Positions 4,974 to 18,944 of a stretch of DNA of 34,052 nt are shown piece by piece. The stretch is from Acidobacteriota bacterium (GTDB lineage Bacteria; Acidobacteriota; Terriglobia; Terriglobales; Acidobacteriaceae), in the NCBI GenBank assembly GCA_003225055.1, contig QIAU01000176.1, positions 1 through 34,052 of the forward strand. The letters are read 5' to 3'. Under the pieces are notes generated by a model. That model ran no database searches. It was not told the origin of the DNA and saw only the letters and a program-made list of their open reading frames with translations. Made by a program: the position numbers and the translations under genes. Positions within the stretch are counted from its first letter, which is position 1. Each line of letters starts with the position of its first letter.

Positions 4974-5094
4974 AGAGCAACAATTCTATGCTCGTGTGTC
5001 GGCAGGAACGGCGTGGGATGGGAAGAACAGGGGTAGCGGTCAGAATCATCGAAGCGCGCTATCGAGATTTATCAACAGTTGGTGGGTCGCTCGC

Positions 5095-5670
5095 CTATTG
5101 CTCTTCACTGTGGCCCGTCGACTCAGTGGGCAACTTTGTCACTGTCGCACGACCAGTGTTGATGTAATAGTTCTCAAGAATGCTGTGTAGCAAGCCGACA
5201 CCAAATAGCGCAAACGCGCACGCCCCAATGCCTACCCTTGCCGTCGACCCCGCCACTGGGCATACGCCTAACATTACCATCACTGCGACTATTACCAAGA
5301 ACGCAATACGTGCTCCGACCATTGCGGAAGGCAGACCATTAGCAAAATTGATTGCTACTGTGGGGCTACTCCGTACCACTCGCCTCATGTAAGCGCGGAC
5401 AAACTTGGAATTGAAGAAGAGGATAAGCACTGCAGACGACGGCACCGCAACGCGCCATCCAACATCAAGCCCGCCAGAACGGCCAAGCAGCCGCTGAAGC
5501 CCATCAATGAAAACAGCCATTCCGGCTAAGAAAATAATCACCCTTCCAGCTTTAGAAATCGGGTGGGAGGGGCCGCGACCAAACGCTCCTCTTATGCCAG
5601 CCGCGTAGAACCCAGCAAACATGAACAGAACGCCAAGAATGCACCCCAGAATTTCCGTGAATAGGGTCAT
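5095..5670 (-). CDS. Small multi-spanning membrane protein, unknown function
   Basis: The 191-residue product has about five hydrophobic segments, near residues 5-27, 44-60, 74-90, 118-137 and 142-165, separated by short basic loops such as RAYMRRVVR. The C-terminus is polar (ESTGHSEEQ). A GAGGG sits about eight bases before the ATG. I do not recognise the family. Its gene is separated from the dehydrogenase fusion by 121 bases on the same strand. The regular hydrophobic pattern and the ribosome site make it a real gene. Confidence 0.7.
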   Translation of the reverse strand: MTLFTEILGCILGVLFMFAGFYAAGIRGAFGRGPSHPISKAGRVIIFLAGMAVFIDGLQRLLGRSGGLDVGWRVAVPSSAVLILFFNSKFVRAYMRRVVRSSPTVAINFANGLPSAMVGARIAFLVIVAVMVMLGVCPVAGSTARVGIGACAFALFGVGLLHSILENYYINTGRATVTKLPTESTGHSEEQ

Positions 5671-5735
5671 GCGAAAGCCCTCGTTTGCATTATGCTCCTG
5701 CGTACCTGTAGATCAGGCGATTACTCAGAACCCGT

Positions 5736-5757
5736 CAATGAGGCGATTTTTCGCCAA
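5736..5757 (+). repeat. Copy of small hairpin repeat (GGCGA-TTTT-TCGCC)
   Basis: A perfect five-base stem GGCGA/TCGCC at 5742-5755 encloses TTTT and is followed by AAC. The preceding CTCAGAACCCGTCAATGAG is nearly the same as the sequence before the copy at 10893, so the shared unit is about 35 bases, longer than the hairpin itself. Confidence 0.7.
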
Positions 5758-5801
5758 CAACACGCATGGTCGCCGAGAGCGGCGCGTCTAACGGATGCGA
5801 T

Positions 5802-6341
5802 TCACTGGTGTGGGACGGTCAACGCCAACTTTCGTGGCGAAAAAATCGTGTACGACACTTTGTGTCGGCCGTCTGGGCGGAGGGCAACTTTTGGAGGGCC
5901 GAAGACAGGCTTAGACGGAGAAGTGTCGAGGAGCGCCTTCTTATCCGTCTGTCCCGCGTAGACCTCGCCGTCAGCCAGTTTGGGGTAGTCACTAAGCTGC
6001 CGCTGGCAATACAGGACGACCGAATACCTTTGGCCGTCTGCCGTTGTCAGAATGGCATTCGTCTGAGTGAATCGGAAGGGAAAGCTCATTACCCCTGAAC
6101 TACCGTAAGTGCAAAAGGGAACGGCTGATCCGGGCTCACGAAGGGGTGGATTCGAGTCGGCGGGAACTGGCTCTCCACAAGGTACAGATACGATCGATTC
6201 GGAGCCTGACGCGCCAGTCAGGTTGCCTCCTCCGGTGTAGCTGTTGACGACCAGAATCTTCACAGTCTGCTGAGAGGCCAAAGCCGTACCGGTCAGTGAG
6301 AGCAGCAAAAGGAAAAAACACGGGAAGGTATGCCGGCTCAT
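5802..6341 (-). CDS. Secreted protein of unknown function
   Basis: This gene encodes 179 residues. An N-terminal signal peptide is evident (RHTFPCFFLLLLSLTGTALA, cleavage probably after ALA at residue 22). The mature part is rich in Ser, Thr, Gly and Pro and has three cysteines (in VPCGE, PFCTYG and LYCQRQ). A GGAGGG four bases before the ATG supports the start, and a TATACT at 6369-6364 on the minus strand could be its -10 box. I do not recognise a domain. The predicted location is periplasm or outside the cell. Confidence 0.7.
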   Translation of the reverse strand: MSRHTFPCFFLLLLSLTGTALASQQTVKILVVNSYTGGGNLTGASGSESIVSVPCGEPVPADSNPPLREPGSAVPFCTYGSSGVMSFPFRFTQTNAILTTADGQRYSVVLYCQRQLSDYPKLADGEVYAGQTDKKALLDTSPSKPVFGPPKVALRPDGRHKVSYTIFSPRKLALTVPHQ

Positions 6342-6371
6342 TTGCCCTCCGACACTACTTCAAAGTATACG

Positions 6372-6386
6372 CTCGGCGATTTGTCG
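6372..6386 (+). repeat. Degenerate copy of hairpin repeat (GGCGA-TTTG-TCGCG)
   Basis: GGCGATTTGTCGCG lies between the leftward secreted-protein gene and the IS element. It keeps the GCGA/TCGC arms but lacks the flanking sequence of the better copies, so its membership in the family is uncertain. It overlaps the promoter region of the leftward gene. Confidence 0.35.
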
Positions 6387-6434
6387 CGGACCAAAATGCT
6401 AAGGAAAGGAATCAGATCGTTGATGCTATATAAA

Positions 6435-6498
6435 AAGGCGCCCCTTTCAGAGTAGGTTGTGAGTGGTTGCCTCACTACCCACAGGAAAGGAGCGCCTT
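6435..6498 (+). promoter_or_regulatory. Hairpin burying the transposase ribosome site
   Basis: Bases 6435-6448 (AAGGCGCCCCTTTC) pair with 6485-6498 (GAAAGGAGCGCCTT) with one mismatch in 14. Inside, GTGAG (6459-6463) pairs with CTCAC (6471-6475), extended by GTAGG/CCCAC with one mismatch. The 3' arm contains GGAAAGGAG, the only good Shine-Dalgarno for the ATG at 6499, and ends at the base before it. Transcripts crossing from outside would fold this arm and block translation, as known for IS10 and IS200. It could also be part of the element's non-coding RNA. Confidence 0.65.
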
Positions 6499-7564
6499 AT
6501 GGACACGAAGTATATCGGAATGGATGTTCACAAAGAAGCCATTGCTATCGCAGTTCTGAACGCTGCAGGGAAGCTGGTCATGGAATCGATCATTGAGACG
6601 AAAGCGAACACGATTCTGGAGTTTCTGAAGGGATTGCGCGGGGAACTGCAGCTTACCTTTGAAGAAGGAACCTGGGCCAGCCTGGTTGTACGACCTGCTG
6701 AAGCCCCACGTGAAGAGAATCGTGGTGTGTAACCCCCGAAGGAACGCGCTGCTGAAAGAGGGGAGTAAGAGTGACCGAGTCGATGCTCGGGAGCTGGCTG
6801 AGTTGCTGTACACGAAAATGTTGCGGCCCGTCTACCACCGAGACCACGGAATGAGAGTTGTGAAGGAGCTGGCACGCAGCTATGTGACCATCAGCAAAGA
6901 TCAGGCGCGCGTGATGACCCGGGTGAAGGCGTTGTATCGAAGCTGGGGGATTGCCTGTTCTGGGAAACAGATCTCCACCGTCCGCCCCCGGTCAAACTGG
7001 CTAGAGAAAATCACGGAACCTGGTGTGCGACACCGGGCGGAGTTCTACTATCAGCAGCTGGATGGGTTGCGGTCGGTGCGTCGAGAAGTGCGCCGCGAGT
7101 TGTTGCAGGAGAGCGGGAAACACAAGGCAAGTCAATTGCTTCGGCAAATTCCCTCCATCGGTCCCATCCGGGCGGCGCTGTTGCTGGCATTGGCGCAAAC
7201 CCCGCACCGCTTTCGCAGCAAGCGGCAGCTGTGGACGTACAGCGGTTTCGGCATCGAGACCCATGACAGTGCCGAATACCGTTACCTGGCCGGACAACTG
7301 CAGCGCTCCGAGAAGCCCCCGCAGGTGCGCGGGCTCAATCGAAACTACAATCACGATCTTAAGAATCTCTTCAAAAGCGCAGCCACCAACGCGGTGGCCA
7401 AGTCTGGGCCCCTGCAAGAGTTTTACCTGGCACTAGTAAAACGAGGAATCAGGCCGGAGATGGCCCGCCTGACCCTGGCACGCAAGTTCGCCGCCATCAC
7501 GTTAGCCATCTGGAAGAAAGGAGTGAGCTTCGACGCCGAACATCTGAAACAACAAACAGCTTGA
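6499..7564 (+). pseudogene. IS110-family transposase (DEDD), single-base frameshift
   Basis: The transposase begins MDTKYIGMDVHKE. The catalytic pattern is D9 in GMDVHK, E in LTFEEGTWAS, and the two Asp of KSDRVDARELAELL; the C-terminal Transposase_20 domain shows IPSIGPIRAALLL and the WTYSGFG serine region. Reading ATG6499 in frame, the protein derails after EEGTWAS at about 6681 and stops at 6732. The WLYDLLKPHVKRIVV continuation is in the +1 phase and is then open to 7564. One extra C in the AGCCTGG run explains this. Total length (~355 residues when repaired) is normal for the family. It may be a real inactivating mutation or a sequence error; a programmed shift is unlikely because no slippery heptamer is visible. 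Confidence 0.85.
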
Positions 7565-8080: not shown

Positions 8081-8410
8081 GTGCTGACCAGCTTGAAGTT
8101 CTGGCTTGCTGTGCGAAGGGCAAAGCGTGAAATTGAAGCCATTGCACGCCACCATTGCCCGAACGCCGAGGTGAGCAGTCGCAGGGGCGCTACCGCCAAG
8201 CATCTATCTTTCCGCATCGCTGTCAATACGGACAAAGAGCGCGACTGCATGCGTGCGGAGCCAAACCTGTACCAGCAATTCTGCAACGCGTTAGTCCGCG
8301 TTGGCTATCCTTCAGAGGCTGCTCCGGGCGTACGTTTTCGCATTGAGTCACAAGAAACGGTTGACCGCGACTACGGCGGAAGTTGGCAGGAAGAAAGTCA
8401 AATGCCATGA
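8081..8410 (+). CDS. Conserved-looking small hypothetical protein
   Basis: From GTG8081 the product is 109 residues: an N-terminal basic helix (SLKFWLAVRRAKREIEAIAR), a middle with HLSFRIAVNTDKERD, and a C-terminus LVRVGYPSEAAPGVRFRIES followed by QETVDRDYGGSW. The end resembles uncharacterised proteins I recall ending in SQETVDR-YGG-W, but I know no function. The frame is open upstream to ATG8036, but that would translate the hairpin repeat, so GTG8081 is preferred; neither has a strong ribosome site. It is probably cytoplasmic and acidic-basic mixed. The element at 8420 begins right after the stop. Confidence 0.6.
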   Translation: MLTSLKFWLAVRRAKREIEAIARHHCPNAEVSSRRGATAKHLSFRIAVNTDKERDCMRAEPNLYQQFCNALVRVGYPSEAAPGVRFRIESQETVDRDYGGSWQEESQMP

Positions 8411-8419
8411 CGCTGGACA

Positions 8420-9350
8420 CCAGGTCCATCGTGGTTGGGATAGAACTCGGACGCGCTTGCTGTAGGCGGAGGGTTACCACTCTCACCCTTTCGGTAGCGA
8501 GGTGGGATCACAATTCCGCCGTGGCCACGGTTTCCGAAGCCCCCCTATCATGCCGGACGGCCGAGTTTCTCAGGTCCGGTTGGAAGTCTTGGCAGTTCGT
8601 CGGTGAGCCTTCCCATCCGCGGCGAGGCTTAAGCGCTGGTTCGCATACGCCCCGTATTCGCATGGTTTGCTCACGGCTTAGTGTCATCTCCCACGTCGGC
8701 TTATCGCCGGCTCTGTGTCCGGCCACCGCGCTGACTATGGCACCACCAAGTACCCAGAGTCCCTTTGCCTGATATCGGCATTACCTTTATCAGGGAGACG
8801 TGGATCGCCTCCTGCGAGGACATTACTCCCCGGTCATGGCTCTTACGGACTCATTCGTCAGTCCCGTTCGGCTCTCCTCTCCTTCGGCCTAAGCCTCGTT
8901 CGAGGAGTTTGTGCAGGTTGCTACCAGCCCCTGCTACCGATGGGACTTTCCCGACGTTATCCCTGTGAATCCTTCCCTGGGTGCCTGGGCCCCTGTCACG
9001 GCGGTACCGCGGAGTGCCTCTGCCTGTTTCTTCCTCCACGTCATCGGCCTTCCCCCGTACGCTATCGAGGTCGGCTATTCCCGCGTCTTCACGTCGAAAC
9101 GATTTCTTGACGGATCGCTTTTTCGAGACTGCAGCCATTTCTTTATGTTCAAGCCCCCAAGTTTGCTCGCCTCCCCGATCGTTCCTACTGCTGCGACCTA
9201 CGTCGCAGGGCAGCCGAGGCTTTTACATCCGAGCAGAACATGCTTCGTTTCCTCCACATGCATCGGACATGCTAACCACCCGACTCAGGCAATTGGTGGT
9301 GTGGGGACTTACACCCCACTAGATTCACAGCCTTGTCGGCTGCTCCAGCA
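8420..9350 (-). ncRNA. Probable non-coding structured or retroelement-like element
   Basis: This ~0.93 kb block has long stop-poor frames in several phases on both strands, none with plausible protein composition. That is the usual sign of conserved, GC-rich non-coding DNA. Read on the minus strand it starts with stem-loops: CAGCC/GGCTG, then GTGGGG-TGTAAGT-CCCCAC (plus 9301-9319), and continues with many short complementary blocks. The GGGG-TGTAAGT-CCCC stem near the 5' end recalls HEARO/omega-type RNAs and leaders of some group II-type reverse-transcriptase elements, but no IscB, HNH or RT gene lies downstream. It fits snugly between the small gene at 8410 and a hairpin-repeat copy at 9354. 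The family is not assigned; strand is inferred. Confidence 0.35.
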
Positions 9351-9353
9351 CTA

Positions 9354-9370
9354 ACGCGATTTTTCGCCAA
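9354..9370 (+). repeat. Copy of small hairpin repeat (GCGA-TTTT-TCGC)
   Basis: ACGCGATTTTTCGCCAA matches the GGCGATTTTTCGCCAA core with one base changed at the 5' arm. It marks the right edge of the non-coding element. Confidence 0.5.
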
Positions 9371-9451
9371 TTGGCAAGCACCTCGGCACCTCATGATTTG
9401 ACTGTATGTCCTGTACTATGACTGGGAATGACTTTTACGGCGGAGGGCTAG

Positions 9452-10254
9452 GTGAAAACGGCGTCTCGGTTCCTAACAGATCTCGTTCTCTGCGTGTCTG
9501 TCCTCGTTCCGCTCACTTCCCAAGGCGCTGATCCGAAAGAGACTATCCGACAAGCACGCGAAAGCTATTACAGCTTGAAGGGCCAGGGTCTCACGGAGTT
9601 CCGATGTCAAGTAGACCCGGATTGGGATTCGATATTCAAAGGTGTAAAGACCGACGCTGTAGGGCGGGGGCAGGTTCTACCAATCCTGAAAAAGACGCAT
9701 TCCCAACTGCTGGTCGGCCCGAAGGTAGTTCGTCAGTGTCGCACCAGACCGAGGTCGCACCCCCGAACGAGAAGGTTGCTGAGCGAGTTCGCTCGTCGGT
9801 TGCAGGTGTCGAGCAGATTCTGACTGGTTTTTTGCAGACATGGTCAGTTTTCGTGATCAGCCCGCCTCTTCCCAGTATCGACAGCGAATATGAACTGCAG
9901 GATCTCGGCGAGAAATTCCGCTTAAGCTATCGTGAAGGACAAGCTGATATCGTAACGTCAATGTCTCACGATTTCGCGATTGATGAATTGAAGGCAACGA
10001 CGCCAGAATTTGAAGGTTCTGTTCGTCCAAAACTGTCCCGCAACAAAGAGGGATTCCTTCTAGGCGGCTGGGAGGCCACCTACAAGGCTGCTTCCGGTGC
10101 TCCCCAGCAATTAGCGGTCAAAATCGAATACGGAAATGTTGAAGGATTTAGATTGCCCACCACTGTGGAAGTGGTCACATCCCTTGATATCCATCTGACT
10201 TTTGCTGACTATCAAGTCAAGCGCAGAATTCCCAGCGCCACTGTCGAACACTAA
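9452..10254 (+). pseudogene. Secreted protein of unknown function, one-base frameshift
   Basis: The gene starts at GTG9452 with GGAGGG four bases upstream. A signal peptide (TDLVLCVSVLVPLTSQGADP) is followed by KETIRQARESYYSLKGQG. At about 9718-9722 the frame is lost: LLVGP continues naturally only in the -1 phase as EGSSSVSHQTEVAPPNEKVA and on to 10254. A single missing base in GGCCCGAAGG repairs it to about 267 residues. The C-terminal half (FRLSYREGQADIVTSMSHDF, GFRLPTTVEVV) has the alternating pattern of a LolA- or DUF4292-like beta fold, but this is only a suggestion. It is either a real pseudogene or a sequence error. Confidence 0.65.
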
Positions 10255-18443: not shown

Positions 18444-18944
18444 ATGAAGGCCGAATACGCTGCCGAGTTGATTAAGTTTCTGGAGCAACATGGCATTGAG
18501 GTCTACGTGGATGGCGGTTGGGCCGTGGATGCCCTGCTGGGTCAACAAACGCGTGTCCACCAAGATCTCGACATCGCACTGCCGCACGAGTATGTGCCAA
18601 GACTGCGGGATTTGTTAAGCACGAGAGGCTATCTGGAGAAATCTCGCGCCGATAGCTGGGAATGCAATTTCGTCCTCGCCGACGCAAGCGCACGTGAGGT
18701 CGATGTTCATTCATACACCCTGGATGAGAGTGGCAACCATGTGCAAGGTGTGGAGTACCAACGGGAGCACCTGACAGGAAAGGGCTCGATCAGTGGCAAT
18801 CCAGTCCGGTGCATTTCGCCCGAGTGGCTCGTCAGGTTCCATTCAGGCTACGAACTCGATGAGAACGATTATCACGATGTCCGGGTTTTATGCGAGCACT
18901 TCGGGATCGCGCTGCCCGATGAATATGGAAGATTTATCAAATAG
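18444..18944 (+). CDS. Nucleotidyltransferase of the lincosamide-type (LinA/Lnu-like) family
   Basis: The 166-residue protein matches the length of Lnu-type nucleotidyltransferases. It has VDGGWAVDALLG (GG-W at residues 24-26, D29), then HQDLDIAL with the metal-binding pair D41 and D43. It continues with EVDVHSYTLDESG, the HLTGKGSISGNPVRCISPEW segment and the family tail VRFHSGYELDENDYHDVRVL. Such enzymes transfer AMP or another nucleotide to a drug hydroxyl such as lincomycin; environmental members often have unknown substrates. No clear ribosome site precedes the ATG. No mobile element or resistance gene adjoins it, so it looks like a chromosomal, possibly housekeeping, relative. Confidence 0.8.
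   Translation: MKAEYAAELIKFLEQHGIEVYVDGGWAVDALLGQQTRVHQDLDIALPHEYVPRLRDLLSTRGYLEKSRADSWECNFVLADASAREVDVHSYTLDESGNHVQGVEYQREHLTGKGSISGNPVRCISPEWLVRFHSGYELDENDYHDVRVLCEHFGIALPDEYGRFIK

Follow-up and report, generated by a model that had tools for sequence, protein, structure and literature searches.

A putative ORF-less group II intron-type RNA with a noncanonical domain V in Acidobacteriota and other phyla

Gene content of the window and extent of the element

The window, i.e. the whole stretch of DNA analysed here (34,052 nucleotides, contig QIAU01000176.1 of assembly GCA_003225055.1), belongs to an acidobacterial genome of 7.4 Mb, and its scanned frames with a Pfam match are mostly ordinary chromosomal genes. 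A frame at 18444-18944 on the plus strand matches the aminoglycoside-2''-adenylyltransferase family (PF10706, E=9.8e-33) and possibly codes for a chromosomal nucleotidyltransferase. An IS110-family transposase frame is present at 6659-7564 on the plus strand, about 0.9 kb from the element described below, and no link between the two was seen.

This element, hereafter E1, extends from 8434 to 9346 on the minus strand (913 bases), beginning with GGAGCAGCC and ending with CUAUCCCAAC. Its termini are common to the other acidobacterial full copies, which lie in differing flanks, and are fixed by the two empty sites found for the L002 copy (in L011) and for the L052 copy. With the L002 copy as reference, the window copy and the other full copies are 74-81% identical. 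A sequence-only reading of this DNA had placed the feature at 8420-9350, which is nearly right and is trimmed here at both ends, had chosen the correct strand, and had proposed a large conserved structured RNA, with a HEARO/omega RNA and an ORF-less group II intron among the candidates. The conserved structured RNA is borne out by a match to the Rfam family RF02003, by further copies and by covariation, and the ORF-less group II intron is the named candidate that gained support. Judging from its sequence, E1 is best described as an ORF-less (“naked”) RNA of the group II intron type, being neither a protein-coding gene nor a HEARO RNA.

The same reading had taken several stop-poor frames on both strands as a sign of conserved non-coding DNA. 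The frames exist, but they are no more than base composition yields in dinucleotide shuffles, and since the shuffles reach similar lengths, their openness does not serve as evidence of this kind. The longest open stretch of the element has 152 codons against a shuffle mean of 145 (185 of 500 dinucleotide shuffles are at least as long), and the third longest frame, of 123 codons, is matched or exceeded in 28 of 500. The chance that one of these overlapping frames is instead a protein-coding gene appears negligible: frames of 129-147 aa are indeed present, but their lengths fall within the shuffle range, long frames are absent from some copies (the six-frame maximum of L039 is 96 codons), none of the six element frames tested has a Pfam match over the cut-off, and the changes between copies track base pairs.

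Homology and distribution of the copies

The covariance-model scan that the sequence-only reading had suggested is positive. The segment 9321-9143 (minus strand) matches the full model (positions 1-138) of RF02003 (group-II-D1D4-4) with 44.7 bits and E=2.4e-8, slightly below the gathering score of 49 for this family. The 5' end of E1 was matched by this model at 9 of the 18 loci scanned, with 34.1-46.9 bits, all below 49; the L002 and L003 copies score 38.7 and 26.0 bits. The D5-D6 model RF00029 does not match the window copy, even at E<=10. Neither HEARO/omega nor other Rfam families reached their gathering score in the window, and at E<=10 the region 8200-9600 gave solely RF02003 and a chance match to Yfr1.

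Further copies, for which the same reading had suggested a search, were found. The window genome has eight matches including the window copy, one of the others being full-length with 77% identity. The E1 query matches 13 of 299 genomes in a sample of the class, a count that includes the window genome, one match (G185) to the E2-type introns described below and one (G262) of just 40 bases; it also matches 7 of 396 genomes in a sample of the phylum, again including the window genome and weak matches of 23 bases (G553) and about 56 bases (G476). An exact 25-base pattern retrieved six stretches from GTDB contigs, five acidobacterial and one from Paenibacillus sp. J2TS4. Used as a query, the Paenibacillus copy led to three plasmid records, from Mycobacterium riyadhense, Niallia and Cupriavidus (the 3' part being seen in the last one), and two other plasmid copies as queries returned the identical three records. 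Relatives of E1 are present in Acidobacteriota, Bacillota and Actinomycetota, and in partial form in Pseudomonadota. No match was found in plasmids with the window copy as query, in phages with the window, Paenibacillus or Mycobacterium copy, in IMG/VR by two exact-pattern scans, or in E. coli genomes with the Paenibacillus copy.

Many E1 copies are truncated or interrupted. In L032, a canonical group II intron in opposite orientation (5040-7389, with plus-strand matches to RF02012 at 5040-5187 and to RF00029 at 7313-7389) splits an E1 copy, so that introns within introns occur both ways. In L033 (2813-3451), two E1 pieces lie head to tail and the 3' end of one copy abuts internal E1 sequence, as if one E1 copy had inserted into another.

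Secondary structure and covariation

A consensus architecture of six domains (D1 to D6), all on the minus strand in the window, is supported by 11 full or near-full copies from three phyla (alignment A2, in which L044 has a deletion near its 3' end). D1 (8951-9339) is defined by the consensus fold and the pair counts, and its 5' part (9143-9321) is the segment that matches RF02003. The hairpin GTGGGG-TGTAAGT-CCCCAC pointed out in the sequence-only reading is real; it lies at 9301-9319 and corresponds to a D1 helix (alignment columns 28-33/41-46) that is 90% paired, with two of its six pairs changed on both sides. D2 (8860-8947, covariation helices 19-24), D3 (8752-8858, covariation helices 25-31) and the D4 region (8588-8750, helices 32-40) are assigned from the consensus fold by their order around the central loop. 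The D4 region holds no ORF of a known family and no reverse transcriptase among the frames tested (Pfam, over cut-off). It is followed by a D5-equivalent hairpin (8549-8582), with AAC (8581-8579) where the catalytic triad AGC is expected, a CC bulge and a GAAAC loop, and by D6 (8437-8545), which displays a bulged A of the branch-point type at 8441, the eighth base from the 3' end, with an AAC tail after it. The D6 helix 42 is 94.6% paired and has seven pairs changed on both sides.

The covariation analysis, likewise suggested beforehand, is positive in that pairs change on both sides. Across the alignment, 92.0% of 2777 cells are paired against 81.2% in shuffles, and two-sided changes affect 135 of 260 pairs against 64.3 in shuffles, neither value being reached in any of 500 shuffles; the two-sided changed cells number 312 against 91.5. 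Sliding the partner by 1-3 columns leaves 36-45% paired, a control that is biased in favour of the structure. Ten of the counted sequences served to derive the structure (L054, L043 and L041 were left out of the fold), and the two-sided changes are not explained by this derivation from the same sequences. A candidate helix of 5 bp that would join the 5' end to columns 756-760 was dropped before the pairs were counted; it is 78% paired and shows no two-sided change.

Recognition of the insertion site

In order to locate the elements of target recognition, alignment columns were scanned for those that pair better with the 5' flank of their own copy than with the flanks of other copies. The window copy has candidate sites for all three exon-binding sequences on the minus strand. 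EBS2 (GCGAT, 9114-9118), identified by the column scan and by the pairings of each copy, pairs with IBS2 (ATCGC, 9356-9360), and EBS1 (AGCGT, 9059-9063), which lies in a terminal loop, is complementary to IBS1 (GTGCT, 9347-9351), both IBS lying in the 5' flank (9347-9360). EBS3 is a G at 8993 and pairs with IBS3, the C at 8433 immediately 3' of the element. The EBS1-IBS1 pairing of the window copy consists of 5 bp including two G.U pairs and is weaker than in most copies.

For EBS1, the highest-scoring of the 199 windows are those that begin at columns 275-290, with a score difference of up to 8.3 against a median of 0.3, and these columns form a terminal loop, as expected for EBS1. When flanks were permuted among 11 copies, the observed sum was reached in none of 200,000 permutations. 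For EBS2, the windows starting at columns 228-237 top the scan for flank bases -17 to -7. Copy by copy, the pairing is good in the window copy, L002, L039, L040, L029, L035 and L036; in L042, L052, L043 and L044 it is weak or questionable. The EBS3 column is Watson-Crick complementary to the first 3' flank base in 11 of 11 copies (L040 and L041 among them being near-duplicates), with G-C, U-A and A-U all represented, and the next best column reaches 75%. L054, with a deleted loop and a gap at the EBS3 column, was left out of the EBS1 scan, L041, as a near-duplicate of L040, out of the EBS1 permutation and the EBS2 scan, and L036, whose ambiguous 3' end was read later, out of the EBS3 scan.

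Copies held out of these scans mostly follow the same pattern. L098, which belongs to another family, has an EBS1 of 7 bp, an EBS2 of 6 bp and a fitting EBS3, and L102, read from its sequence, has 5 bp, 6 bp and a fitting EBS3. The EBS1 pairing is 6 bp in L010, 4 bp in L032 and unconvincing in L006, and EBS3 fits by reading in L032, L053 and L036. The L052 copy has a strong EBS1 match, and none was found at the junction of L044. Complementarity of EBS1, EBS2 and EBS3 to the insertion site is thus shown in most of the tested copies, and could alternatively have been kept through selection for splicing after insertion. The fold of E1 and its site pairings are shown to be under selection or to reflect recent activity.

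These results contradict the possibility that E1 is a structured RNA other than an intron, such as the HEARO/omega RNA of IscB/TnpB transposons or another mobile non-coding RNA. The RNA is large and ornate and the IS110 transposase frame is near, but the EBS/IBS pairings, the bulged A of D6 and the homology to RF02003 are specific to group II introns, and the Rfam scan gave no HEARO match, so that we regard this explanation as very improbable.

Insertion sites and host introns

Empty sites, whose comparison with occupied ones the sequence-only reading had suggested, were found for two sister copies; none was found for the window copy in 61 genomes. The L002 copy sits within a group II intron whose counterpart in another genus (L011), 86-92% identical, lacks E1: the empty site in L011 joins ...GACGAATGT directly to AAATGAACC..., whereas in L002 the order is ...GACGAATGT, E1, AAATGAACC... 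In L052, E1 lies in D6 of an E2 intron, and an empty counterpart is present upstream on the same contig, identical over about 30 bases on each side, which points to a recent insertion. There is no target-site duplication at L002/L011 or at L052, as expected of reverse splicing.

The flank is another group II intron at 9 of the 29 loci with readable flanks. Six hosts were recognised by comparison with fetched introns (L002, L003, L005, L010, L053 and L058). In L029 and L035 the host is evident from a split D5 and a neighbouring maturase gene, and in L052 it is the E2 intron. L003 and L005 share a common host position, in L058 a 5'-truncated E1 precedes the 3' half of a D5, and L006 and L036 are weak further host cases. 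At 18 of the 29 loci, including the window, no host intron was recognised, and some of these loci have common flanks (L007, L008, L011 and L037 were left out of the flank comparison). E1 was found in D1, D5 and D6 of its hosts.

The Paenibacillus E1 lies between GAGCCGTATGCCTTAA and TTGGGCACGTACGG, directly 3' of a 446-aa frame that has both a reverse transcriptase and a maturase domain, and the Mycobacterium riyadhense E1 lies between AAGCCGTGTGCGGGAG and AACCGCATGCACGG, 3' of a gene with a maturase domain. Once joined, the flanks of either copy fold as a D5-like hairpin with a two-base bulge, placing E1 in the D5 loop of the host. The EBS2 of these copies (ATACGGC and TATACGGCT) pairs with the AGCCGURUG strand, i.e. 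the D5 strand that contains the AGC triad of the host. This match of EBS2 to a conserved D5 strand in two lineages suggests that the target is the catalytic domain of the host intron.

Divergent termini and D5 triad

Two features of group II introns depart from the canonical type in E1. Among the 22 copies that have a 5' end (the window copy and 21 others), 16 start with GGAGC, two with GGAGT, two with GTAGC, one with TGAGC and one with GAAGC, and the canonical GUGYG occurs in none. The AGC or CGC catalytic triad is absent from the D5 of E1: at the third triad position, 22 rows of alignment A1 (without L004, L006, L043 and duplicate loci) show 21 A, one C and no G, and A is also found in four later copies (L097, L098, L100 and L102). 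In L031 and L047 the next C of D5 is lost as well. A loose regular expression for D5 had given chance matches, and the D5s were then found with a profile built without L043. A GUGYG start and the triad G are normally tied to activity. Given the two departures, E1 is not filed as a canonical member of group II. According to a review, the D5 triad of group II introns is taken to be AGC or CGC and has a counterpart in spliceosomal U6 (PMC4424553).

The other end of the element is closer to the usual type. L029 and the full copies from Acidobacteriota end in AY, with a bulged A of D6 nearby (CUAUCCCRAY, A at -8); in the acidobacterial ones the end reads CUAUCCCRAC and the flanks are unrelated save for a few common sites. 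L035 ends with CGAGCCCGAC and L036 with CUACCAC, where the A is nearer the end, and the Mycobacterium and Niallia copies deviate with GAGCCCGAC and CUACCAC. E1 would work like a group II intron and descend from one, as a variant departing from the canonical type.

The D5 hairpin itself (helix 41) is 98.6% paired and among the best conserved parts of E1, and it aligns with the AGC-bearing D5s of E2-type introns (two copies in L049 and, by reading, the host in L052). As E2 is also missed by RF00029 (E<=0.1), the missing G alone does not explain the failure of this model. In the window D5, the triad A faces a C, and the two may form an A+.C wobble resembling, or isosteric with, the usual G.U pair. 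Either A works at this position, or the chemistry needs help in trans.

The second option would mean that the D5 of E1 is insufficient and that both catalysis and reverse transcription are provided in trans, e.g. by the D5 of a host intron or by host factors. It is consistent with the absence of the triad G from 26 of 26 E1 D5s, with the frequent location of E1 inside other group II introns and with the introns without DV known from Euglena plastids (PMC2882425). A dispensable domain would not be expected to stay as conserved as this hairpin, however, and many copies lie outside recognised introns, and we hold this possibility to be rather unlikely. That the E1 family was active in the past and has left inert remnants, with no present movement or splicing, agrees with the many truncated or interrupted copies and with the noncanonical triad. 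It seems considerably less probable still, given that the fold is kept across phyla with the excess of two-sided changes over shuffles given above, that copies differing in EBS1 are each matched to the site they occupy, and that the occupied and empty sites of L052 are identical over their flanks.

Reverse transcriptases and proposed mobility

No reverse transcriptase was identified in the E1 frames tested. The sequence-only reading had remarked that no partner gene is present, which is true locally; elsewhere, the window genome has three matches to the GIIM maturase domain, of which two lie within open frames (467 and 445 codons long). In a comparison of 47 hand-chosen genomes (the 33 negatives being hand-picked and G262, with its single 40-base match, being left out), 12 of the 14 genomes that the E1 query matches were found to have GIIM, compared with 6 of the 33 that it does not match (Fisher p 2e-5, uncorrected for kinship and assembly quality). 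Removal of G185, whose match is of the E2 type, gives 11 of 13 against 6 of 33 (Fisher p 5e-5, with the same lack of correction). G214 and G328 are positive for E1 and have no GIIM match.

Some of the genomes concerned are rich in introns. The acidobacterial genome G231 has 13 GIIM maturase matches together with two E1 matches. The window genome (G000) has ten matches to RF02005, e.g. L063, where a 436-codon frame looks by reading like a reverse transcriptase at its start and no longer does so further on; introns of the RF02005 type host some E1 copies.

We consider it highly probable that E1 is a retromobile ORF-less descendant of RF02003-type introns, which would reverse-splice through EBS pairing, be copied in trans and often come to lie inside introns. 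The E1 RNA would be spliced and would insert into DNA by reverse splicing guided by its EBS/IBS pairings, in many cases landing inside other group II introns. Mobilisation in trans, i.e. copying by the reverse transcriptases that other group II introns of the same cell encode, appears the most likely route. More tentatively, and somewhat short of an even chance, E1 may represent an active lineage with an AAC triad and a GGAGC start, mobilised in trans and in places evolved to home into the D5 triad strand, the most conserved part of its hosts. It would then be a satellite of introns, able to move between phyla wherever group II introns occur, and overlooked since surveys look for a reverse transcriptase or a D5 of canonical form.

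Comparison with known systems

A search of the openly licensed literature gave no report of the E1 lineage, which is weak evidence of novelty. According to a 2015 review, few bacterial ORF-less introns can have gone unnoticed unless the structure of domain V is unusual (PMC4424553), and E1 fits this exception. A 2022 survey rested on the RF00029 D5 model (PMC8919778) and probably would not report E1, because this model gives no match here. If confirmed, homing into D5 would be, as far as the literature searches show, a new strategy of an intron parasite. In addition, a widespread lineage that covaries, matches its targets and lacks the triad G would make the requirements of the active site directly testable. 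The presumed catalytic centre of E1 does without a base that is regarded as nearly universal.

Among the systems closest to E1 are the group II introns of the RF02003 type, such as the protein-coding intron at L077, with a homologous architecture of the 5' D1 and the same EBS/IBS logic of group II introns. Unlike E1, L077 starts with GUGCG (by reading) and encodes RVT_1 (E=1.5e-37) and GIIM (E=1.2e-13) domains, whereas E1 mostly starts with GGAGC, has no ORF and carries an AAC triad.

The E2 introns, represented by L049 (D5s at 1627-1565 and 1389-1329, minus strand) and by the host in L052 (about 3200-1390, minus strand), form an apparently ORF-less sister group. No sense-strand frame of at least 120 aa was found in the E2 stretch of L052, and none of at least 150 aa in L049; in L052, E2 D6 ends recur repeatedly. 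They share with E1 the D5-D6 architecture, including the odd D5 loop and bulge, but keep the AGC triad in the three D5s seen, in contrast to E1.

Archaeal ORF-less introns reportedly home into related introns, with the intron ORF as target (Dai and Zimmerly 2003, by title). E1 would be similar in homing into group II introns and different in the location of its sites, in D1, D5 and D6 of the host.

Finally, in Thermosynechococcus elongatus, ORF-less introns have been shown to be mobilised by the reverse transcriptases of other introns (PMC2882425). According to this source, the TeI3 introns and twintrons of the species resemble E1 in being ORF-less, in their good EBS/IBS match, in their mobilisation by the IEPs of other introns, as proposed for E1, and in nesting at a conserved site within another intron; they go back to a single ORF deletion within one genome, and the outer intron receives them close to the start of its ORF. 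E1 differs from them in its presence in several phyla, in its divergent D5 and in targeting the D5 of the host in two cases.
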